Virus record (IMG/VR): IMGVR_UViG_3300022752_004158
Location: 1-30,010 of that record
Reading direction: 5' to 3' (one strand)
Source of the DNA: a virus
Length of the DNA: 30,010 bases
Each line of letters opens with the position of its first letter. Positions within the stretch are counted from its first letter, which is position 1. A model generated the notes under the pieces. That model worked only from the letters and a program-made list of their open reading frames with translations, ran no database searches and was not told the DNA's origin. Of this stretch, positions 2,199 through 28,008 are shown in pieces. Made by a program: the position numbers and the translations under genes.

Positions 2199-2206
2199 TA
2201 TTTATA
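2199..2206 (-). promoter_or_regulatory. Late promoter box abutting a start codon
   Basis: TATAAATA on the minus strand, overlapping the stop codon of the bilin reductase gene, then TTAGATT and ATG at 2191. Same compact arrangement as at 977-984. Confidence 0.65.
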
Positions 2207-2873
2207 CAGTTTCTGGAAACAAAACTTTCTCCACAAATTTTGTTATAGTAGATTCAGCGACACCCATAGATATCATACTTTTAACTACCTGTGGGTTCTG
2301 TTTTTGATAATGACAGTATCTATTTTGAGCCATATGAAAATCAGCCCCAGAATCTTGAGATAGCCCTACATTATTGAGATAATAATCTAAAGTTTCAATT
2401 GCTAGATCACATAGTAGGTCAACTTCGTGTTGTTCTTGGATATTCCCTGCGGCAACCATTCCCGGACTAAAGATCTGTTTGGCCCATTCTGGCAAATTTC
2501 TTTCTTTGCTCCAAGTTAAATTAGATACACGTTGATAAAACCATTTTATCATATAGTGATCAGCATCACCTGCCGCACTGAAATCATGAAATGCACCTGT
2601 GATCTTATTGCGTCCGCAGATAGCATCAAACCCCCAAATAGGGCTAGGATCATTAAAGTGAGGAAATACAGTGGAATGTAGTATGTAGATTCCGTGACTA
2701 TCACGTTTATCTACAATTTCTATATGTGCTCTACGATATCTGATACTGGACCATAATTCATTGTGCCAATCAAATTCAGTGTCTACGTTACCTGCCATAG
2801 TGGTACCTGAAGCCGTAAATTTTTTTTCAAGTTCATTGGCCAATGATTCAATTTTATGCCAAATCATTCTCAT
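2202..2873 (-). CDS. pcyX: Ferredoxin-dependent bilin reductase, PcyA/PcyX type
   Basis: A 223-residue ferredoxin-dependent bilin reductase, which reduces biliverdin IX-alpha to a phycobilin using ferredoxin electrons. The core runs RRAHIEIV (E52), ILHSTVFP (H66), PIWGFDAICG (D83), then KITGAFHDFS. These align with Glu76, His88 and Asp105 of Synechocystis PcyA; keeping the His88 equivalent, with the same 17-residue spacing to Asp, points to the PcyA/PcyX branch. PcyX is known from uncultured non-cyanobacterial marine phages and makes phycoerythrobilin. The gene overlaps the heme oxygenase gene by 20 nt, so substrate maker and user are translationally linked. ATG codons at 2873 and 2867 are both possible starts. 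The family is near certain; PcyX rather than PcyA is inference. Confidence 0.85.
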   Translation of the reverse strand: MRMIWHKIESLANELEKKFTASGTTMAGNVDTEFDWHNELWSSIRYRRAHIEIVDKRDSHGIYILHSTVFPHFNDPSPIWGFDAICGRNKITGAFHDFSAAGDADHYMIKWFYQRVSNLTWSKERNLPEWAKQIFSPGMVAAGNIQEQHEVDLLCDLAIETLDYYLNNVGLSQDSGADFHMAQNRYCHYQKQNPQVVKSMISMGVAESTITKFVEKVLFPETV

Positions 2874-3390
2874 ACTCTTTCATACACTTAATGGCCCAGT
2901 CAAATGCTATGTTGGCTTCATCTCCCATACTATCATCTAACTTGGCCCTTAAATTTGTCATTAATTCTTGAGCATTTTCAAACTCTAGTGATCTATGCGA
3001 TCCGGGAACAATACGCTTTATAGCCTGTCCACCAAACATGTCGCCCATATGCCAAGTATAAAGATGAGCTAATACTTTTTTAGCATCTGTTTCTATAGAC
3101 TTTATATAGTCATGATATTCTATAGTGGTTTTGCGAATCTCATACTGATTTAGTTGCTCATTCATTATGTTAAAATCCTGAGCCAATAAGGCTGTTCGCA
3201 GTATGCCCTTAAGGTCTTCGATCAACAAATTTTTTATAGCAGCAGTTTCAATTGCATTATAGAAAATTACTTTTTGATAAGTCCAATCTACCCATAAATG
3301 AAAAGGCAGAGTCCTTGCGAACACTGCCTTCATAAACGGTGTAGATTCAGCCTCTCTGTGTTTTGCAGCGGTTAAATCTCGTAAAGCCAT
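2854..3390 (-). CDS. ho1: Heme oxygenase
   Basis: A 178-residue HO1-type heme oxygenase, which opens heme to biliverdin IX-alpha, CO and iron using reduced ferredoxin. The proximal-helix motif LTAAKHREAE carries the likely heme-ligand His11. The distal helix LYTWHMGDMFGGQAIKRI matches the family motif (GDLSGGQ in classical enzymes). It is shorter than cyanobacterial HO1 (about 240 residues), lacking the C-terminal tail. GAGG lies just upstream of the ATG. It sits seven bases after clpS and overlaps the bilin reductase gene, giving a complete heme-to-bilin route. Confidence 0.92.
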   Translation of the reverse strand: MALRDLTAAKHREAESTPFMKAVFARTLPFHLWVDWTYQKVIFYNAIETAAIKNLLIEDLKGILRTALLAQDFNIMNEQLNQYEIRKTTIEYHDYIKSIETDAKKVLAHLYTWHMGDMFGGQAIKRIVPGSHRSLEFENAQELMTNLRAKLDDSMGDEANIAFDWAIKCMKEYENDLA

Positions 3391-3397
3391 TAGGTCC

Positions 3398-3703
3398 TCA
3401 TTCTGGTTCTACTTTAATTATCAAAGGGAATCCGTTGTTTCTAGCGATCTTGGTTGCATCGCTTACTTTTTGTTCTGCAATTTCAAATGGATAGATTCCT
3501 GCGATTCCGCTACCAGTATGATGTACCTTCATTGTAACGTCCATTGCAGATTCTTGGTTATGCCTAAACACCTGCATGAGAACGGCAATAACAAATTCTA
3601 CTGGCGTGACATCATCGTTACAAAATACGACCTTAAATTTTCCAGGCTCTTTTAATTCAGATTGTTTTGATTTTTTAACAACCTTTTCTGTAACTGTTTC
3701 CAT
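3398..3703 (-). CDS. clpS: ClpS, Clp protease adaptor
   Basis: A 101-residue ClpS. After a variable basic N-terminal tail, the core reads FKVVFCNDDVTPVEFVIAVL, then a VHHTGSGIAGIYPFEIAEQKV segment and a C-terminal hydrophobic strand (FPLIIKVE). The NDD-TP and HH-G motifs are those that bind N-end-rule residues and the ClpA N-domain. In bacteria ClpS delivers N-degron substrates to ClpAP and can block other ClpA substrates. No ClpA is in this window, so a host Clp ATPase is the likely partner. A perfect 11-bp hairpin separates it from hsp20 upstream. Confidence 0.93.
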   Translation of the reverse strand: METVTEKVVKKSKQSELKEPGKFKVVFCNDDVTPVEFVIAVLMQVFRHNQESAMDVTMKVHHTGSGIAGIYPFEIAEQKVSDATKIARNNGFPLIIKVEPE

Positions 3704-9919: not shown

Positions 9920-10165
9920 TTAAAACATCTTTTTAGGTAATTGCTGATCTCGAAGTCTTTTAAGCCAACGAGCACGAGCGGCTCCTGCTTTACGTTTTCT
10001 CACAGTTGTTGGCTTTTCAAAAAACATTTTTTTACGTAAAGTTTCTAAAATTCCGCTGTCGTCCACTTTTTGTTTGAATTTCTTTAGTGCGGTATGGACA
10101 GGCATATCGCCAACTATAACTTTATTGCCGTTGATAATTTTTTTAAGATTTTTGTTGTTGCTCAT
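9920..10165 (-). CDS. rpsU: Ribosomal protein bS21
   Basis: An 81-residue bS21. After a short N-terminal part (MSNNKNLKKIINGNK), VHTALKKFKQKVDDSGILETLRKKMFFEKPTTVRKRK-like text follows bS21 throughout, including the FEKPTT-x-RKR signature and the basic C-terminal helix. The start at 10165 replaces a longer frame that would overlap clpX more; the genes still overlap by 23 nt. bS21 sits at the mRNA exit region of the 30S subunit and helps initiation. Phage copies, known in pelagiphages, may replace host bS21 and bias translation. Confidence 0.92.
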   Translation of the reverse strand: MSNNKNLKKIINGNKVIVGDMPVHTALKKFKQKVDDSGILETLRKKMFFEKPTTVRKRKAGAARARWLKRLRDQQLPKKMF

Positions 10166-11378
10166 TTTTCTTTTTATCGTATAATAAAATCGCAGGTTTC
10201 CCATTGACTGTATCTTTAGTTATCCTAATACTATGAACTCCCTGCTCTCGCATATTAACTGCATCATACTGATAAGGCAGTAGAGTTTTTTCAATAATAT
10301 TTTTCAACCCTCTGGCATTGGTTTTTAGTTCTTTGGCCTTTGCAGCAATTTCCCAAAGACTATCTTTATCAAATTCTAACCTAAGACCATCAATTTCAAA
10401 CATATACTGATACTGCTTTATAATGCTATTTTTAGTATCGATCAAAATCTGTACTAATTGTTCTTCATTAAGTTCTTCTACATTTAAAATTAATCCGAAC
10501 CTTCCTACAAATTCGGGAATTAGCCCATATTTGATAAGGTCCTTAGTACTGACATTATTGTAAAAATGACTAGAATCTGTGGCGCTTACCAAATTGGCAT
10601 TAAAACCTATGGTTCTTGATTCCTGTCTTTGCTGAACAATTTTGTCTAGTCCCACAAAGGCACCACCACAGATAAAAAGTATACCACTGGTATCAATTTC
10701 CTGCATGTCCCCGCCTGGATGCTTTCTTTTGCCGGATATAGGCACCCTTACAATAGAGCCTTCTATCATTTTTAACAGAGCCTGTTGAACTCCTTCGCCA
10801 CTTACATCTCTAGTGATGCTAACACTTTCGCCCTTTCTAGAAATTTTGTCAATTTCATCTATGTAGATAATACCCCTGCTGGCCTTGTCAATATCTCCAT
10901 TACTTTCATTAATGAGTCTGATTAAAATACTTTCAACATCATCACCTACATAGCCTGCCTCTGTTATTCCTGTGGCATCACAAATAGCAAAAGGCAAATC
11001 TAGATATTCTGCTATCTTCCTTGCCATCATGGTTTTCCCACAACCAGTTGGACCTAGTAGTAGCACATTGGTTTTTTCAATTTCTATTTCTTTGTGGGGA
11101 TTATTAATTCTTTTACAGTGTTGGCTGACTGCCACGCTGAGACCTACCTTGGCATAGTCTTGTCCTATAACATAATCATCTAGATACTCTTTAATTTTTA
11201 CTGGATTCAATAATTTTTGAATATCAGTTTTTTCTTTCTTTTCGTCTTTTAATATTTCAACGCAAAGATCAATACATTCATTACATATACCTGCGTTCTC
11301 ACCTACTATTAATTTTTCAACATCATCTTTACTTTTACCACAGAAATCGCAGTCATGTTTCGCTTCTGGCTTTACCAT
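10143..11378 (-). CDS. clpX: ClpX, AAA+ unfoldase
   Basis: A 411-residue, full-length ClpX. The N-terminal C4 zinc domain has C10, C13, C32 and C35. Walker A is GPTGCGKT (109-116), Walker B ends DE at 174-175. All functional loops are kept: pore-1 GYVG (142-145), RKH (218-220) and the ClpP-docking IGF (257-259), with TIGFNANL in place of the usual IGFGA. It should therefore thread tagged proteins into host ClpP, since no ClpP is encoded here. It overlaps the upstream gene by 26 nt and rpsU downstream by 23 nt, so these are translationally coupled. A near-complete host-type ClpX in a phage is unusual. Confidence 0.96.
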   Translation of the reverse strand: MVKPEAKHDCDFCGKSKDDVEKLIVGENAGICNECIDLCVEILKDEKKEKTDIQKLLNPVKIKEYLDDYVIGQDYAKVGLSVAVSQHCKRINNPHKEIEIEKTNVLLLGPTGCGKTMMARKIAEYLDLPFAICDATGITEAGYVGDDVESILIRLINESNGDIDKASRGIIYIDEIDKISRKGESVSITRDVSGEGVQQALLKMIEGSIVRVPISGKRKHPGGDMQEIDTSGILFICGGAFVGLDKIVQQRQESRTIGFNANLVSATDSSHFYNNVSTKDLIKYGLIPEFVGRFGLILNVEELNEEQLVQILIDTKNSIIKQYQYMFEIDGLRLEFDKDSLWEIAAKAKELKTNARGLKNIIEKTLLPYQYDAVNMREQGVHSIRITKDTVNGKPAILLYDKKKNEQQQKS

Positions 11379-15351: not shown

Positions 15352-16086
15352 ATGTACATAATAAACAGTGTGAGAGAAAAATTTTGTAATTTAGATAATT
15401 TAAATAAAACTTTTAGAGGGTCAGAACCATTTCCGCATGTGGTCTTAGATAATTTTTTCCCAGAGGATGTAGCTAGATCTCTAGAACTAGAATGCCAAGA
15501 TTTAGATAAGTCTCTTTGGACACAGTTTACCAGACTAGGTAGTTACATGGAGGAATGTAATAAAATTGCTCACATGCCTGTTGCATTTCAAGTTAGTAAC
15601 GAAATTCATAGCAAGCTTGGTTTAGATTGGTTAGGCGATATTACAGGAATATCTAATATTTTACCTGATCCACATCTTATCGGTGCAGGTTATAGCAGAA
15701 GTTATAATGGTGATTCTTTAAAAATACACACAGACTTTAACTGGAATGACACTGTAAGATTACATAGACGAGCCACTATGATTATATATCTTAGTTCACA
15801 GTGGCAAGATCACTATGGAGGAGAAATAGAATTTTGGGACAAGGATCGTACAGGCCCAGTTGTGTCTATCCCACCTTTATTCAATAGGTGTGTGATTTGG
15901 GAAAATCACAATAGAGGATTTCATGGTTATCCTCGTCCTATCACCTGTCCTAACAATCTTAGTAGAAATAGTTTTAGATTGTTTTTTTATTCAAGTCAAA
16001 TTGACCCCAGTCAACTAGAGTATCCACATAGAAGCCTTTATTGGTACGACAATAATTCAAAAATACCTTATGATATCAAAACTTAA
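15352..16086 (+). CDS. 2OG-Fe(II) dioxygenase
   Basis: A 244-residue oxygenase of the prolyl-4-hydroxylase-like class, using 2-oxoglutarate, O2 and iron. The iron ligands are HTD (H126, D128) and H191 in FHGYP; R209 in SFRLFF is placed to bind 2-oxoglutarate. GEIEFWD fits the core strand. The substrate cannot be read from the sequence. It opens the plus-strand cassette, overlapping the PLP gene by 17 nt. The ATG lacks a ribosome binding site. Confidence 0.88.
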   Translation: MYIINSVREKFCNLDNLNKTFRGSEPFPHVVLDNFFPEDVARSLELECQDLDKSLWTQFTRLGSYMEECNKIAHMPVAFQVSNEIHSKLGLDWLGDITGISNILPDPHLIGAGYSRSYNGDSLKIHTDFNWNDTVRLHRRATMIIYLSSQWQDHYGGEIEFWDKDRTGPVVSIPPLFNRCVIWENHNRGFHGYPRPITCPNNLSRNSFRLFFYSSQIDPSQLEYPHRSLYWYDNNSKIPYDIKT

Positions 16087-16717
16087 AGAACAAGGTTATA
16101 CAATCAATGATCCTTGGGATGCTGTAACCTTATTTGAAAACAGTCTTGCCCAATATGCTAATTCTCAATATGCTGTTTGCCTAGACAGTTGCAGCAATGC
16201 CCTATTTTTATGTATGAAATACCTAGGCATTACAGGCAAGATTTTAGAAATACCTAAACATACCTATGCTTCTGTGCCTATGCAGTGTATACATGCAGGT
16301 AATAGAATTAAATTTATAGAATATAAATGGTCAGGCCTATATCCTATAGGAAATACGGGTATTATAGATTCAGCCACAAGATTTTCTAGAAACATGTACG
16401 TTAATGATTCATATCAATGTCTCAGTTTTCACCATAGAAAGACTCTAAAGATAGGGCGTGGTGGCGCCATACTGACTAATGACAAACAATTTGTAGATTG
16501 GGTTCGGCCTATGATCTATGATGGTAGACACAAAGACATACTATATGACCAAGATGAATTAGGCTGTATAGGCTATCACATGTATATGACTCCCGAAGAT
16601 GCTGCCATAGGACTTTTAAAGTTACTAGATATCACAGATTCTAATCCTGATACAGGTAGTAGTGAAACCTATAAAGATCTATCTCTACAACAGATATTTT
16701 TTCCATACATTGAATGA
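16070..16717 (+). CDS. DegT/DnrJ/EryC1/StrS-type PLP protein, short form
   Basis: A 215-residue relative of sugar aminotransferases of the DegT family. FENSLAQYANSQYAVCLDSCSNAL, read in part, matches the N-terminal cofactor site, EIPKHTYASVP the following strand, D100 the pyridine-nitrogen Asp, and FHHRKTLKIGRGGAI carries the Schiff-base lysine K124. GYHMYMTPEDAAIGL matches the GYNYR-x-x-E-x-x-A block. The usual protein is 360-400 residues, so the small C-terminal domain is missing. It could still bind PLP. Overlaps the neighbours on both sides (17 nt and 4 nt, ATGA). Confidence 0.75.
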   Translation: MISKLKEQGYTINDPWDAVTLFENSLAQYANSQYAVCLDSCSNALFLCMKYLGITGKILEIPKHTYASVPMQCIHAGNRIKFIEYKWSGLYPIGNTGIIDSATRFSRNMYVNDSYQCLSFHHRKTLKIGRGGAILTNDKQFVDWVRPMIYDGRHKDILYDQDELGCIGYHMYMTPEDAAIGLLKLLDITDSNPDTGSSETYKDLSLQQIFFPYIE

Positions 16718-18483
16718 AAAACTTATATTTTTTTCAATGCCAGGAAGCCTATGGCAATAGCATCTACCTACCATACACCAGCGGTATACTATTTGCCTAT
16801 GTTAATCAATTCGAGCATATAAAAAATAATTTTATGCTGGCAGATATATTTTTTGAAAAACGTTCCGTAAATGATTATCTTACTGCAATAGACAATCCAG
16901 GCGTTGTCTGCTTTAGTAATTATGGATGGAACACTGTATATCATTTCACCTTGGCCAAGTTGATAAAAGAGCAATATCCACAATGTGTCATAATAGTAGG
17001 AGGACCAAATTCTCAACAAACAGAATCATATCTAAGACTGCACAGTTACGTAGATTATTGGGCCTGGGGAGAAGGTGAGCAAACACTGCTTGATTTGCTA
17101 ACTGGCTTAATCAACAACTGTGTGGAAAATATAGAAGGAATAAGTTTTATAAAGAAAAATGAATTGGTAAAGAATCCTCAAAGGTCTAGAAAAACTGACT
17201 TAGATACAGTGCCAAGTCCTTATCTTACAGGCATATTTGATCATTTTTTTACACGCTATGAATATAATTTTATGCCTGTTTGGGAAACTAATAGAGGATG
17301 TCCATATCATTGCACCTTTTGTGATCTAGGAGCCGACTACTACAATAAATTACATAAATTTTCAACAGATAGATTACTATCAGAAATAGATTGGTTTAGC
17401 AAAAATAAAATTGAATATGTAGAAGTAGCAGATGCTAATTTCGGTATATTGGAAAGAGATCTAGATCTGGCATTGCGAATACGACAAAAAAATCTTGAAA
17501 CTGGATTTCCTAAAAAAATAAATGCCACATGGGCAAAGAATAACCCTAACAGAGTTTTTACTATGAGTCAAATACTCAATGACATTAATAGGGGTGGTGT
17601 TACTCTGGCTCTACAGAGTACAAATAACAATGCACTGTCAAATATAAAACGATTTAATATTGTGAATACTAGATTAGAGGATGTTGCTAAAAAATATGCA
17701 GAGGCAGGAATCGCTACCTATCACGATTTTATCCTAGGGTTGCCGGGAGAAACATTTGAGTCCTGGAGAGACGGATTGCTCTATGTTATAGATATAAATC
17801 CAGAGAGTTGGATATTTGGACATCCTTTAGAAGCCTATCAAAATACAGAATTTGCAGATAAAGATTATATCGAACGCTTTAAACTTAAATCAGTAAGTAC
17901 GCCTCAGGTCAGTTTTTTTGCCAAAAGAAATAAACAAATACCAATAGAAATAGGTACCTATATTGTTGAAACAAATACTATGACCTATGATGATTATATA
18001 GAATCTTTTTTATTCAAATGGTTCCTTATTTCAAACCACAGTCTTGGATGGACTAATCACATTAGTAAAAATACAGGTTCTAGGCCCAGTGAATTTTATA
18101 AGAAATTATGGGATTGGGTAAAACTTACACCTAATTGCCTAATTAGAGAACAATTAGAATTGACCATGCATTTTTTAATAGACACTTTAGAACATGGGGA
18201 ATTTTGGGGTCGTCAACTATTTGGAGAAGATGATGTCTATTGGGAATATGAAAGTGCCAGTTGTATAGCCTACGAATTAGATAGACAGAGGTATTTCAAT
18301 GAAATGAGTAATTTCATGCTGACAAATTTTCCTTTAGTAGATAAAGAAATTGTCAGCCAAAATGATCAACAGTTAATATCCTTTAACCGTAAATACCCCA
18401 ACAGACAAGTTTACGAAACATTTGAAATTTTTTGCAGAGAGATATATTGGTATGGAAGAAGAAGAAAAGCATGGCAAGTTTAA
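16714..18483 (+). CDS. Radical SAM protein with B12-binding-like domain
   Basis: A 589-residue radical SAM enzyme. Residues 1-140 have a Rossmann-like layout with IIVGGPNSQ and WGEGEQTL, as in cobalamin-binding radical SAM proteins, but the DxHxxG cobalamin-ligand motif is absent. The 4Fe-4S motif is C196-x3-C200-x2-C203 (RGCPYHCTFCD), followed by the core barrel (EVADANFG, LALQS, DFILGLPGET). The last 200 residues are unlike anything I know and are rich in aromatic residues. Such enzymes do methylation, ring or C-C chemistry; the substrate is unknown. The ATG overlaps the upstream stop (ATGA) and the next gene starts inside it. Confidence 0.88.
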   Translation: MKNLYFFQCQEAYGNSIYLPYTSGILFAYVNQFEHIKNNFMLADIFFEKRSVNDYLTAIDNPGVVCFSNYGWNTVYHFTLAKLIKEQYPQCVIIVGGPNSQQTESYLRLHSYVDYWAWGEGEQTLLDLLTGLINNCVENIEGISFIKKNELVKNPQRSRKTDLDTVPSPYLTGIFDHFFTRYEYNFMPVWETNRGCPYHCTFCDLGADYYNKLHKFSTDRLLSEIDWFSKNKIEYVEVADANFGILERDLDLALRIRQKNLETGFPKKINATWAKNNPNRVFTMSQILNDINRGGVTLALQSTNNNALSNIKRFNIVNTRLEDVAKKYAEAGIATYHDFILGLPGETFESWRDGLLYVIDINPESWIFGHPLEAYQNTEFADKDYIERFKLKSVSTPQVSFFAKRNKQIPIEIGTYIVETNTMTYDDYIESFLFKWFLISNHSLGWTNHISKNTGSRPSEFYKKLWDWVKLTPNCLIREQLELTMHFLIDTLEHGEFWGRQLFGEDDVYWEYESASCIAYELDRQRYFNEMSNFMLTNFPLVDKEIVSQNDQQLISFNRKYPNRQVYETFEIFCREIYWYGRRRKAWQV

Positions 18484-19522
18484 AAAGGTAAACTCTCACA
18501 CAGAATGGGGTAATCTCAAAGAAGTTATTTTAGGTACTGCTACAAATGCCAGGGTTCCTATAGTAAAAAGACACGACATACACTGTGTAGACTATGCAGA
18601 TTATGACAATGTTGTCAATCTGCCAGGGGGCCCTTATCCTAAACAGATAATAGAAGAAACAAATGAAGATCTTGATATCTTTCAAGGTCAATTAGAATCT
18701 ATAGGCATATCAGTTATTAGACCAAAGACTGTAGATACAAATAAAGTTTTCGCTAATCCAAATTGGGATAGTGATGGATATTACAGTTATTGTCCAAGAG
18801 ACAGTGTGTTAGTTGTTGGTGACACCTTAATTGAAACACCTATGCCTTTGCGAGCCAGGTATTATGAGACGCTGATGTTCAAAGAAATATTTAAGAACTA
18901 TGCTCGTGCAGGTAGTAAATGGATAAGTGCTCCTAAGCCAGAATTATCAGATGATCTTTATGATAGATCAAATTTAAAGGTTCCCACTCTAACAGAATTT
19001 GAGCCCTGCTTTGATGCGGCTAATGTTGTAAAATGCGGTAAGGATTTAATTTATCTGCTGAGTAATAGCGGAAATCGTTTTGGTGCTCAATGGTTGCAGA
19101 CTACACTTGGCGATCGTTACCGTGTTCATGTTGTAGGCGGAGTTTATGCATTTGTTCATCTTGATACAACTATAATGCCTTTGGCTCCAGGTGTAGTATT
19201 GCTAAATCCTAAAAGAGTTAATGAAAATAATCTACCAAATTATTTTTCAAATTGGAAGAAAATATGGGCAGCAGATCCAATAGAAACTGCCTATCTACCA
19301 CACTGGGCACCAGCCAGCCCCTGGTTAGGAATGAATGTATTAAGTATAAGTGAAAAACTTGTCGCGGTTGAAAAAAGCCAAGTAAATCTAATAAAACAAT
19401 TAGAACAGGAAGGCTTTAATACCTTGCCTGTTCAATTGCGTCACTGTAGAACCCTAAGCGGAGGTCCACATTGTGCTACTTTAGATACTATACGTGAAGA
19501 CCACTATGACGATTTTAGTTAG
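18452..19522 (+). CDS. Amidinotransferase (GATM-like)
   Basis: A 356-residue amidinotransferase of the guanidino-group-modifying fold, which moves an amidino group from arginine to an amine. TEWGNLKEVILGTA starts the fold, CPRDSVLVVGD and EPCFDAANVV are core segments, FVHLDTTIMPL carries the active-site His with its Asp, and HCRTLSGGPHCATLDT carries the nucleophilic Cys near the C-terminus. Start ATG 18452 is chosen over an upstream TTG; the overlap with the radical SAM gene is 32 nt. The acceptor could be glycine, lysine or a sugar amine. Last gene of the cassette; it meets the minus-strand 33-residue gene tail to tail. Confidence 0.88.
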   Translation: MEEEEKHGKFKKVNSHTEWGNLKEVILGTATNARVPIVKRHDIHCVDYADYDNVVNLPGGPYPKQIIEETNEDLDIFQGQLESIGISVIRPKTVDTNKVFANPNWDSDGYYSYCPRDSVLVVGDTLIETPMPLRARYYETLMFKEIFKNYARAGSKWISAPKPELSDDLYDRSNLKVPTLTEFEPCFDAANVVKCGKDLIYLLSNSGNRFGAQWLQTTLGDRYRVHVVGGVYAFVHLDTTIMPLAPGVVLLNPKRVNENNLPNYFSNWKKIWAADPIETAYLPHWAPASPWLGMNVLSISEKLVAVEKSQVNLIKQLEQEGFNTLPVQLRHCRTLSGGPHCATLDTIREDHYDDFS

Positions 19523-19636: not shown

Positions 19637-19664
19637 ATAAAAAGTAGGTCCCGAAGGACCTACT
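19637..19664 (-). terminator. Intrinsic terminator of the tmRNA gene
   Basis: AGTAGGTCC and GGACCTACT pair (9 bp) around a TTCG tetraloop, followed on the minus strand by TTTTTAT. A strong terminator, just 3' of the tmRNA coding piece. Confidence 0.93.
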
Positions 19665-19935
19665 ACTATTTTGGGTAATAAGGCATAGATGCCCCAGAGA
19701 TTATGCCGCTAGGGCAAAAACCTCGTCATTCGCTGCGTTTGCAGTTATTTAATTTGCTTCTTTTACGGAGAGCGCCTACCGTGTTGTCCACTCTGTTACT
19801 CTTTGTCCTGTCGAAACCAGTCATCCCCAACGCAGAACACTTCTGTAAATGCTCTCCGGTGGAGATGGGGAGAATCGAACTCCCGTCCAAGACACTTTTC
19901 TCTTTGCTTCATACAACAATTCTTTATCTTCGCCC
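19665..19935 (-). ncRNA. ssrA: Circularly permuted (two-piece) tmRNA
   Basis: On the minus strand the 3' half comes first: a T-arm GGGAG-TTCGATT-CTCCC then CATCTCC-ACC, ending at 19858. A 29-nt spacer (19857-19829) follows, then the 5' half from 19828, GGGGATGACTGGTTTCGACAGG. GGGGATG and CATCTCC form the 7-bp acceptor stem; AGGACA and TGTCTT can form the first part of the next helix. The terminal A of CCA is not encoded. The tag frame (19742-19701) reads ANAANDEVFALAA and a stop, ending in the ALAA that ClpXP recognises. The outer 5' end, about 19935, and the 3' end are estimates. tmRNA with SmpB rescues stalled ribosomes; permuted genes are typical of alphaproteobacteria and some cyanobacteria. 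Confidence 0.95.
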
Positions 19936-20013
19936 TAGGTAATCTATTACAGTACCAAAAATCCAAATACCTGCAATTAGTGTAAAATAAAATCCCACTG
20001 CTTCAATCATCAT
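19924..20013 (-). CDS. Tiny membrane peptide, 29 residues
   Basis: A 29-codon frame starting ATGATG at 20013, overlapping the stop of the gene upstream. MMIEAVGFYFTLIAGIWIFG, then TVIDYLGRR, is one hydrophobic helix with a charged C-terminus. It ends in the tmRNA gene's 5' edge (tmRNA acceptor piece starts near 19935). The coupled start and clean membrane profile favour a real gene. Confidence 0.5.
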   Translation of the reverse strand: MMIEAVGFYFTLIAGIWIFGTVIDYLGRR

Positions 20014-20195: not shown

Positions 20196-21059
20196 CTATT
20201 CTGTAAAAAGATCATTCATTGCCAATAACTTTTTCTTTTTCCTGTCGTTCCTCCAACCTTCACGCATTTTCTCACGTTTAACTAACTCGGCAGCATCTGG
20301 GCTAACTGGCACAGGATCAGGCAACTCTTGCACTGTGTCCAATGTTGGTAAAAAAGCGTCATATGCTTGTTTGTTTAATTCAAAACCAATAAACTTTCTA
20401 CCATATCTTAGAGCAGTTCTACCTGTAGTGAGTCCACCGCCAAAACAATCTAAAACAGTATCTCCTCTATTACTTGAATACATGATAAACTTCATAATGA
20501 AGTCTTCGCTGAGTTGATTCTTATTTTTAATTTGTCCAGGTTTATAATCCCTAGGCATATCCTGTACAGTTAATCTATCATGATAACTGTCTTTTTGATC
20601 AGTGTATTTCCAATTTGAATTAAATGTACGTTTTTGCCCGCCCTTATCAGGTTTTTGCCAAAATAAAACGTGATAATGACTGCTAACAAATTTATTCTTA
20701 GTGCTTACACCGAAACTATATTTGGCTATAATATGATTAATTTCTTCTAGATTTGTGCTATGTAACGCATTTAATATATGATGTAAATTAGTGTATCCAC
20801 TGACAATATACATACTACCGCCTGGTCTAAGTACCCTAGCACACTCTCTAATCCAATCTTGACTAAATTTTGCGTATTCCTTCATGGGTACATCTATATA
20901 ACCCTGTACCACATTAGATTCATCCCTATGATAATGAACATCTAGACCATCACCGTCAATGCCATATGGAGGATCAGTAAAAATTAAATCTATACTATTA
21001 TCCGCCACATGCTCTGCCATACCTTCTATACATGATTGGTTGTAAACCTTATAGGTCAT
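20196..21059 (-). CDS. DNA methyltransferase (N6-adenine or N4-cytosine)
   Basis: A 287-residue amino-methyltransferase of the beta class. Motif IV is TDPPYG (D29-Y32), early in the chain; motif I, DCFGGGLTTGRTA (204 onward), comes near the C-terminus and replaces the usual FAGSGTT. VLRPGG and SMYIVSG lie between. Target recognition residues are probably in 120-190. The last 50 residues are charged. Such phage enzymes protect phage DNA against restriction or mark it for packaging or expression; the target site is unknown. The DPPY to motif I order is diagnostic for the class. Confidence 0.9.
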   Translation of the reverse strand: MTYKVYNQSCIEGMAEHVADNSIDLIFTDPPYGIDGDGLDVHYHRDESNVVQGYIDVPMKEYAKFSQDWIRECARVLRPGGSMYIVSGYTNLHHILNALHSTNLEEINHIIAKYSFGVSTKNKFVSSHYHVLFWQKPDKGGQKRTFNSNWKYTDQKDSYHDRLTVQDMPRDYKPGQIKNKNQLSEDFIMKFIMYSSNRGDTVLDCFGGGLTTGRTALRYGRKFIGFELNKQAYDAFLPTLDTVQELPDPVPVSPDAAELVKREKMREGWRNDRKKKKLLAMNDLFTE

Positions 21060-25509: not shown

Positions 25510-25687
25510 CAGTGTCTCCATCTTGTACAATACAAAGATATCCTTGATTATCTACAAAGACATCTTTAGTGTTGGGATCTCTTAATGCGAAAAGAATCAT
25601 TTGCTCGGCATCCTTTTCGATCTCAAAATCCTCAGGTATGTTAAACTTTTTTAACATTTCGTTTATTTGCTGTCTTATTTTTGTCAT
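25490..25687 (-). CDS. Small hypothetical protein between nrdA and nrdB
   Basis: A 65-residue protein from ATG 25687 (ATGA with the nrdA stop). MTKIRQQINEMLKKFNIPED, an acidic middle (EIEKDAEQMILFAL) and a DVFVDNQGYLCIVQDGDTDE tail. It overlaps nrdB by 20 nt. Its place inside the nrd operon suggests a supporting role, but no motif shows one. Confidence 0.6.
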   Translation of the reverse strand: MTKIRQQINEMLKKFNIPEDFEIEKDAEQMILFALRDPNTKDVFVDNQGYLCIVQDGDTDEQNAI

Positions 25688-28008
25688 AGCACACAGGACT
25701 CGCAATTTTCTTCTTGTTCTTCATAGATAACCACATTATCGGCAGCATTGACTACGTTAGTTGTGGTAACTGATATTTTAGCACCAACTTTGTTTATCAA
25801 ACTATAATATATGGTTTTTAATCCCCACTTGTAGGCCAGCATGAGGTTTTTGGCAATTAGTGTGCCTGGTACTTTGCCATTTGGAAAATGCGCTGGATTA
25901 TAAAAAGTGTTGGTGCTTAAACTTTGATCTATATAAGCGGCCAACACTGCGGATGTCTTTAGATATCCTTCACAGTCCAATTGGTCCCACATAAGTTGAT
26001 ACTTGATTTTGAGACGCTTATATTCAGGAACCACCTGCACAAAACTACCAGCCTTACTTTCTTTCACAGAAATCAATTCCATAGGCATTTCGATACCATT
26101 AGTAGAATTTAGTACCACACTGCTTGACTCAACAGGTGCAACTGCCATTAGAGTGGCATTACGAATTCCATATGTTTTCATTTTTTGACGGAGCGGTTCC
26201 CAATCTAGACTAGGTGTGAAATCTGTTAACTCGTCTACGCCTTTGTTGCGGCGTTCCCAGGGGAATACGCCCCTACCATAGTAGGTATATTGGCTTCGTT
26301 CACAGGCGCCACGTTCTTGAGCCAATTCCACACTGGCCTCTGTTAGATAAAAAGCCTGATGTTCCATCCAGCGTTTTACTTCTTTGAGACTGTCTGCATC
26401 TCCATATTTTAAATTACGACGAGCGTGCCAAAATGCTAGGTTAGTGATGCCAACTCCAAGTGGTTCAAAGTCCTTGTTGGCCAATTCGCTTTGGACGCTT
26501 AGGAAGTCTTGATAACTTAACAGGTTGCTTAGGCTGCGAACCAATACCCTACAGGCTTTTCGCATATCCTGCGGATTGCGAAAAGCACCCCAGTTAATCG
26601 ACCCAAGAGTGCAAAGAGCGATTCGTCCCGCAGCATCTTCAATTCTTTGGAAAGGCTTCGTGGGTAATAGTATCTCTTGGCATAGATTGGATTGATAAAT
26701 TGGATCAAGCGTCGTATCAAACGGTCCTTGGTTGATGACGTTATCGATGTTGACAAGGTAAATTCTGCCAGTATCAGTCCGTTCTTTAAGTATTCCATTT
26801 TTGAATATTTCATCCGCTGATAATACTTTTTTCTTTTTTTCCTTATCTTGTTCATATTGAAGGTATAGGGTTTCAAATTCTTTAGAATCTCTATAGTAGG
26901 CTTGGTAGAGGTCAGGTACTTCATGAGGATCAAATAGAGTAATATTTTCGTTATTTTTATAGCGTCTCCAGAACATAGCACTTATAACCACGCTGTAGTC
27001 CATTTGACGCACACGGGTTTCTTCAGTACCTTGATTATTTTTAAGCACAATTAGATCTTCAAACTGTGCGTGCCAAATAGGAAAGGTCACTGTGCAACTA
27101 GCATTACGTATACCGCCTTGTGAACAACTACGTAGATCACCATACCATTTTTTAAGAAATGGCACCATGCCTGTATGTTTGATTTCACCGTTGCGAATTG
27201 GTGCTCCTAGGGGTCTAATACGGCCAATTTCCAAGCCAATACCGGCTCGTTTACTGGCATATTTGGCCATCATTTCTCCCGCAGCAAATATGCTATCAAG
27301 GGTATCATCGCTACTAATGAGCACACAACTACTGAATTGTTTAGTAGTAGTGCCCAGGCCAGCGAGCACAGGAGTAGCGAGAGTAAAGTGACCTTCACTT
27401 GCACATTCATAATATTCTTTAACATATTTTAACCTTTTATCTTTTTGCTCGGCATGAAATGCGGTAGCAGCAGCCACGGCATAGCGAACCTGTGGAGTTT
27501 CAAATATCTGTCCTGAAGCACGATTTTGAACTAGATATTTTTCACAAAGTTGGGCAATGGCCGCATAGGTATAGTGTTCGTCTTTATGGTGATCAATAAA
27601 CAAATCTATAATATTCCATTCTTCTTCTGAATACCATTCCAATAACTCAGGAGAATACATGCCCACTTCTACATTTTTCTTAACAATAGAATAGAGCTTT
27701 GGAGGGTCATATTCACCAAAAACCTCTTTCCTAAGCATACTGACTTTTTGTCTACCTGCTACATATTGGTAGTTTACATTGTTTATTTCTGGATTTTCTG
27801 TTTCGTCTATTAGGCCCACCATGGCCTGAAGTAGTAATTCATCTATGGTTTTTGTATGGATTCCGTCGTGTAATTCTATCTGTGCTTTTATTTCTATCAT
27901 ACTTGGGCTTACGCCATCTATACCTCTACAACAGTTTGCTACTTGTCTTTGTATTTTGCCAATGTCTAAGGGGACACGAGATCCATTACGTTTAACCACT
28001 GTAATCAT
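25684..28008 (-). CDS. nrdA: Class Ia ribonucleotide reductase, large subunit
   Basis: A 774-residue NrdA. The N-terminal ATP-cone (about 1-95: VVKRNGSRVPLDIGKIQRQV) binds dATP and ATP for activity control. Active-site and allosteric segments follow: FSSCVLI (Cys), AGIGLEIGRIRPLGAPI, NLCQEILLPT and ALCTLGSINWG (Cys), and the C-terminal tail NCESCVL carries the redox Cys pair that reduces the active site. Length is as in the E. coli enzyme (761). It works with the NrdB and glutaredoxin genes below it. AAAGG precedes the ATG. Confidence 0.96.
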   Translation of the reverse strand: MITVVKRNGSRVPLDIGKIQRQVANCCRGIDGVSPSMIEIKAQIELHDGIHTKTIDELLLQAMVGLIDETENPEINNVNYQYVAGRQKVSMLRKEVFGEYDPPKLYSIVKKNVEVGMYSPELLEWYSEEEWNIIDLFIDHHKDEHYTYAAIAQLCEKYLVQNRASGQIFETPQVRYAVAAATAFHAEQKDKRLKYVKEYYECASEGHFTLATPVLAGLGTTTKQFSSCVLISSDDTLDSIFAAGEMMAKYASKRAGIGLEIGRIRPLGAPIRNGEIKHTGMVPFLKKWYGDLRSCSQGGIRNASCTVTFPIWHAQFEDLIVLKNNQGTEETRVRQMDYSVVISAMFWRRYKNNENITLFDPHEVPDLYQAYYRDSKEFETLYLQYEQDKEKKKKVLSADEIFKNGILKERTDTGRIYLVNIDNVINQGPFDTTLDPIYQSNLCQEILLPTKPFQRIEDAAGRIALCTLGSINWGAFRNPQDMRKACRVLVRSLSNLLSYQDFLSVQSELANKDFEPLGVGITNLAFWHARRNLKYGDADSLKEVKRWMEHQAFYLTEASVELAQERGACERSQYTYYGRGVFPWERRNKGVDELTDFTPSLDWEPLRQKMKTYGIRNATLMAVAPVESSSVVLNSTNGIEMPMELISVKESKAGSFVQVVPEYKRLKIKYQLMWDQLDCEGYLKTSAVLAAYIDQSLSTNTFYNPAHFPNGKVPGTLIAKNLMLAYKWGLKTIYYSLINKVGAKISVTTTNVVNAADNVVIYEEQEENCESCVL

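Follow-up and report, generated by a model that had tools for sequence, protein, structure and literature searches.

A permuted two-piece tmRNA gene in a large-phage lineage and its conserved order with phage ClpX and ClpS

Permuted tmRNA gene of the window

The analysed DNA (the window, i.e. the whole stretch of 30,010 bases from a virus record) contains a complete permuted (two-piece) tmRNA gene on the minus strand, from about 19918 down to 19639, and in the large-phage lineage to which the window belongs this gene is found in a conserved order with nrdA and the phage genes for ClpX and ClpS. tmRNA releases stalled ribosomes and marks the incomplete protein for degradation. Rfam cmscan produced matches to RF01850 beta_tmRNA (133.6 bits, E-value 7.3e-41, positions 19641-19966, gathering cut-off 84) and RF04321 tmRNA_permuted (129.2 bits, positions 19701-19918, gathering cut-off 47), and ARAGORN called the gene as permuted tmRNA (tmRNA*) with the tag ANAANDEVFALAA. 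The permuted phage tmRNA that an earlier note had read from the letters was thereby confirmed, the range given there (19637-19935) holding the gene and being slightly too wide. The elements were located by string match, each of them being unique on its own strand:

19639-19918, minus strand: permuted tmRNA gene, whole (RF01850, RF04321, ARAGORN)
19868-19884, minus strand: T arm, 5-bp stem GGGAG/CTCCC with loop TTCGATT (Rfam, string match)
19858-19867, minus strand: 3′ strand of the acceptor stem, CATCTCC, and ACC (string match)
19829-19857, minus strand: 29-nt spacer separating the two pieces (string match)
19807-19828, minus strand: 5′ strand of the acceptor stem, GGGGATG, and D-region TTTCGACAGG; the coding piece begins here (string match)
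19701-19742, minus strand: tag reading frame ANAANDEVFALAA and stop (ARAGORN, string match)
19639-19664, minus strand: intrinsic terminator, 9-bp stem, TTCG loop and T run

In transcript order, the acceptor piece with the T arm and CATCTCC-ACC is followed by the spacer, the coding piece, the tag frame and the terminator. The reversed halves with their 29-nt spacer, the 7-bp acceptor stem, the T arm and the D-region had all been named beforehand and were all matched on the minus strand, and the same holds for the tag called by ARAGORN and the strong terminator. As also anticipated, CCA is not encoded: the DNA reads ACCG, without the last base of CCA, so that the 3′ end would need completing. 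A 28-aa open frame ends at 19924, directly upstream of the tmRNA, and no promoter stands out upstream of the gene; the tmRNA is therefore probably made from a longer transcript.

All seven positions of the acceptor stem are paired in the window (GGGGATG with CATCTCC, one G-U). Among 46 sequences, comprising the window and its relatives, standard pairs occupied 95.7% of the acceptor positions, with a slight bias towards pairing from anchoring the 5′ strand at the first GGG, and pairing fell to 42-62% when the partner strand was slid by 1-3 nt. These sequences were picked via an RNA stretch outside the acceptor stem, and 23 of 69 were set aside, the simple T-arm pattern not being found in them. 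Altogether 11 different stem combinations were present in the 46 sequences, mostly as compensated variants, and the acceptor stem between the two pieces is held by compensating changes in the relatives. Folding of the 290-nt transcript gave a z-score of -3.8 against shuffles; the structure exceeds chance.

Tag peptides

The window tag ANAANDEVFALAA, whose frame has a resume codon and a stop, is 13 aa long and consists of ANA followed by ANDEVFALAA, the open frame ending in ALAA. An LAA ending was found in most of the 57 unique phage tags, and the tag of contig L291, where the gene was missed by ARAGORN, was read from the frame as ANAANDEVYALAA. Eight contigs (L042, L158, L236, L247, L439, L442, L443 and L446) had tags 26-33 aa in length that share a conserved inner peptide resembling DTFDFSAMSFTGNTV, the full tags of L446 and L042 being ANDDSFDVSAISFTGNSVANDSRFALAA and ANADTFDFTALNFTGNTVANDSRFALAA, respectively. 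This insert is lacking from the window tag. At all loci examined, the insert motif [DNA][TAS]F[DE][FV][SGT]A[LMI][SN]FTGN[TS]V occurred only within tmRNA tags, and in L449 and L464 it was out of frame with the expected tag start. When 12 whole records were searched with a related long tag, 8 gave a match, in every case confined to the tmRNA, and the long-tag peptide was not found in the named-phage collection. The pooled pN/pS of the insert was 0.22 over 8 distinct DNA versions, which points to purifying selection on the tags of the long-tag group. Such long tags in related phages hint that the peptide itself may do more than signal degradation.

Further long-tag families were TGEVTVSGKNVKFSARTA-like (L160, L182, L186, L193, L253, L316, L321), TFEFKTFSVEEVASNDFAFELAA (L445, L447, L457), FKPEVTVPMSVFADQELVAA (L156, L166, L206, L229) and KKALGFADLTVGMSELRLAA (L233, L240). 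A standard-form tmRNA call together with the long tag GNTNFWSLVNESVNAPVTEELLAA was obtained for contigs L185, L198, L201, L204, L218, L225 and L252.

Phage lineage and gene order

The window represents a fragment from a lineage of large phages. IMG/VR contains 38 relatives of its DNA methylase (20196-21059), with 71-87% identity and on contigs of up to 257 kb, and contigs of ClpS-bearing relatives reach 280-290 kb. Of the NrdA relatives, which number at least 595, the best 80 show 81-86% identity, and among named phages the closest NrdA is that of Xanthomonas phage X1 (61%), together with those of Stenotrophomonas phages (54%). Our impression is that the lineage is of freshwater source; the records carry no habitat.

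The protein-coding genes of the conserved order are the following:

25684-28008, minus strand: nrdA (class Ia ribonucleotide reductase alpha), which anchors the order on its upstream side
10143-11378, minus strand: full-length phage ClpX containing the zinc domain, Walker A, the GYVG pore loop and the RKH and IGF loops
3398-3703, minus strand: phage ClpS adaptor (PF02617, E-value 6.4e-28, model positions 1-78 of 80)

In the window, the tmRNA, ClpX and ClpS genes are located 5.8, 14.3 and 22.0 kb downstream of nrdA, all on one strand. For comparison of gene order, 23 nrdA-bearing records longer than 30 kb were chosen regardless of tmRNA or Clp genes. Permuted tmRNA was present in 16 of these, in every case on the nrdA strand and downstream of that gene, at a distance of 3.7-7.9 kb in 15 records and 12.7 kb in one; when at least 8 kb of downstream sequence was available, the proportion was 15 of 20. 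Same-strand ClpX (8 records) and ClpS (10 records) came after the tmRNA. All three genes in the order tmRNA, ClpX, ClpS were found in G032, G035, G041, G048 and G049, and the order is shared by G051, which makes six records in total. Since several genes separate the tmRNA, ClpX and ClpS, these do not form one tight operon, and since both ClpX and ClpS are missing from many tmRNA-bearing records, some of them large, the module is not obligatory.

Co-occurrence was computed on records that are related fragments with shared ancestry and hence do not provide independent tests: tmRNA was present in 6/6 ClpS records versus 2/24 others in the methylase set (P 5e-5), and in 8/8 ClpX records versus 8/15 others in the nrdA set (P 0.026), where the association of ClpS with tmRNA was not significant (P 0.31). 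A simple ClpS-tmRNA association, strong in the one set and not significant in the other, is consequently not claimed.

Elsewhere in the window, a heme oxygenase gene adjoins that of a ferredoxin-dependent bilin reductase (2202-3390, minus strand), the two forming a phage gene pair for making bilins in a setting that is not obviously that of a cyanophage. Genes on the opposite strand (15352-19522, plus) form a run that encodes a 2OG-Fe(II) oxygenase, a DegT-type aminotransferase, a B12-binding radical SAM protein and a further protein with weak similarity to arginine deiminase or dimethylargininase, and that looks like a small biosynthesis cluster.

Protein partners

In Escherichia coli, the RKH and pore loops of ClpX bind ssrA tags and its IGF loop binds ClpP. 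The phage ClpX scored 494.9 bits against the clpX equivalog model and was aligned with bacterial ClpX of known structure, with Walker A at position 109, GYVG at 142, RKH at 218 and IGF at 257. It thus keeps the zinc domain, the Walker motifs and the loops that would read ssrA tags and pair with ClpP. The phage ClpS aligns to solved ClpS over most of its length (E-value 1.5e-18) and scores under the strict equivalog cut-offs of NCBIfam. ClpS of E. coli redirects ClpA away from ssrA-tagged proteins, and the phage ClpS may redirect ClpA likewise. Homologues of ClpS are also encoded by the large Pseudomonas phages PA5oct, Paride, Callisto and MIJ3, as well as by Sinorhizobium phage Phosso and Acinetobacter phage MD-2021a.

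SmpB was not found in 102 of the 103 records searched. The single SmpB-bearing record was G090 (the record of contig L185), where ARAGORN identifies a tmRNA of standard form. In the window, a 30,010-base fragment of the phage, none of the ORFs scanned resembled SmpB. ClpP is present in some relatives, yet in none of the 23 nrdA records.

Type, ancestry and host

The two-piece form had initially been taken to tie the phage to an alphaproteobacterial or cyanobacterial host. This was not borne out: the best model of the tmRNA clan for the window is RF01850 beta_tmRNA and not the alphaproteobacterial RF01849, and comparison of the tag showed that its core ANDEVFALAA resembles betaproteobacterial tags, e.g. 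ANDERFALAA. Betaproteobacteria, omitted in the earlier note, are a known permuted-tmRNA lineage (PMC11915505, PMC9004378). Permuted tmRNAs were also present in three Stenotrophomonas. Some phages of the methylase set have a tmRNA that best matches the alpha model, and the tmRNA type has therefore changed within the wider group.

In a tree of 154 permuted tmRNAs, the label phage or bacterium changed 5 times, as against 41 with shuffled labels; 11 long-branch rows were left out, the bootstrap is not settled, and branches within the phage part are weakly supported. The nearest rows to the window tmRNA were phage L291, L451 and L446 at 0.45-0.60 changes per column, whereas the nearest bacterial tmRNA stood at 2.06, in a bacterial sample drawn by pattern and biased to GGGGNTG acceptor stems. 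It seems safe to state from these distances that the window tmRNA was not copied recently from any of the bacterial genes sampled. Because the phage tmRNAs cluster apart from the bacterial ones, the window tmRNA is weak host evidence and does not identify the host, and host assignment from it was rejected.

Viral contig L266 has its tmRNA inside a Propionivibrio clade, with the tag ANDERFAIAA, and is perhaps a prophage at or in the host ssrA gene.

Proposed function and alternative explanations

We regard it as probable, if far from certain, that the gene gives rise to a functional two-piece tmRNA used in infection, and that the tagged proteins are fed to phage ClpX acting with host ClpP. In such a course of events, host tRNA-processing enzymes would excise the 29-nt spacer and the host would add CCA, after which host alanyl-tRNA synthetase and host SmpB would load the tmRNA onto ribosomes stalled on broken mRNA. 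Host SmpB would then have to fit the phage tmRNA, no SmpB having been seen among the ORFs scanned in the window. The stalled protein would receive the tag ANAANDEVFALAA and the ribosome would be freed. Phage ClpX, reading the tag, could pair with host ClpP through its IGF loop, and phage ClpS may favour ClpXP over host ClpAP as the destination of tagged proteins. Ribosomes and amino acids might in this way be kept available to the phage during degradation of host mRNA. A more far-reaching proposal, to be taken as tentative and rather unlikely in its full form, is a dedicated phage tag-and-destroy line, in which the tag would be tuned to phage ClpX and steered by phage ClpS, and in which the second selected peptide in the tags of the sister phages (e.g. 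DTFDFSAMSFTGNTV) would give another fate or recogniser besides degradation.

Alternatively, the tmRNA might only rescue ribosomes and feed the host Clp proteases, while phage ClpX and ClpS remodel phage or host proteins and their position merely reflects the gene order of the lineage. The 8-16 kb and the intervening genes that separate ClpX and ClpS from the tmRNA, the many tmRNA phages with neither of them in the record, and the ClpS-tmRNA comparison in the nrdA set (P 0.31) are all in line with this explanation, which we consider possible, although on the unlikely side, as the order and strand of the three genes are constant across the lineage, phage ClpX has kept the ssrA-reading loops, and ClpX is associated with tmRNA in the nrdA set (P 0.026, between related records). 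It is improbable that the phage tmRNA is a decoy which competes with or poisons the host tmRNA. A precedent has been reported in the tag-less tmRNA of mycobacteriophage DS6A (PMC11915505); unlike that, the window tmRNA has a tag frame that is complete, with a stop and a customary LAA-type ending, and the tags of the relatives are open, those of the long-tag group under purifying selection.

Least probable is that the gene results from misassembly or from recent capture of host ssrA, for instance through inexact excision where a phage had integrated at ssrA. Integration at ssrA is known, and pieces of the gene occur in prophages (PMC9004378); one viral contig of the sample, L266, lies within a Propionivibrio clade. 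The window tmRNA is instead flanked by phage genes, an arrangement that recurs in independent contigs, and it lies near phage tmRNAs and far from every sampled bacterial one. A misassembled or host chromosomal gene was rejected, the same form recurring in the syntenic place in many independent phage contigs.

Comparison with known systems

Two-piece tmRNA on phage is already known, and the conserved order with phage ClpX and ClpS adds to it. It has been published in methylophage Melnitz and in pelagiphages, with 53 two-piece forms among 133 phage tmRNA structures, 50 of the 53 being from marine or aquatic phages (PMC9004378), and a tmRNA database of 2025 holds 79 phage sequences (PMC11915505). 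In the open-access literature, with most subscription journals outside its coverage, no paper was found that describes a tmRNA-ClpX-ClpS order in phages or phage tags that are long and conserved. The present gene extends the phage two-piece tmRNAs to a widespread large-phage lineage, in which it looks like a long resident rather than a recent host capture, and the conserved order raises a testable question, i.e. whether stalled proteins in infected cells are degraded by machinery of the phages themselves.

tmRNA together with SmpB has been published for huge phages (PMC7162821); these are like the present lineage in being very large and in having tmRNA among translation genes, and differ in the reported SmpB, which is absent from 102 of 103 records here, where ClpX and ClpS are present. 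With the betaproteobacterial two-piece tmRNA (RF01850, RF04321), the window gene has in common the reversed halves, tRNA-like domain, spacer, tag frame and terminator, whereas it is phage-borne, has a tag of 13 aa instead of the usual 10, and groups with phage tmRNAs.

In Menderavirus (Stenotrophomonas phages Moby, Mendera and Bhz51), ARAGORN calls a permuted tmRNA close to nrdA with the tag VAANDDSYTVRIAA, 80.6% identical to that of the window over 71 nt. These phages differ in that the tmRNA is upstream of nrdA beside tRNA genes, the genome is about 160 kb, and NrdA is 54% identical. The likeness to Melnitz is that of a permuted tmRNA borne by an aquatic phage. No riboswitch was reported in the window by Rfam; the Melnitz tmRNA is alphaproteobacterial in type and was reported with a glutamine riboswitch, whereas that of the window is of beta type and accompanied by ClpX and ClpS.
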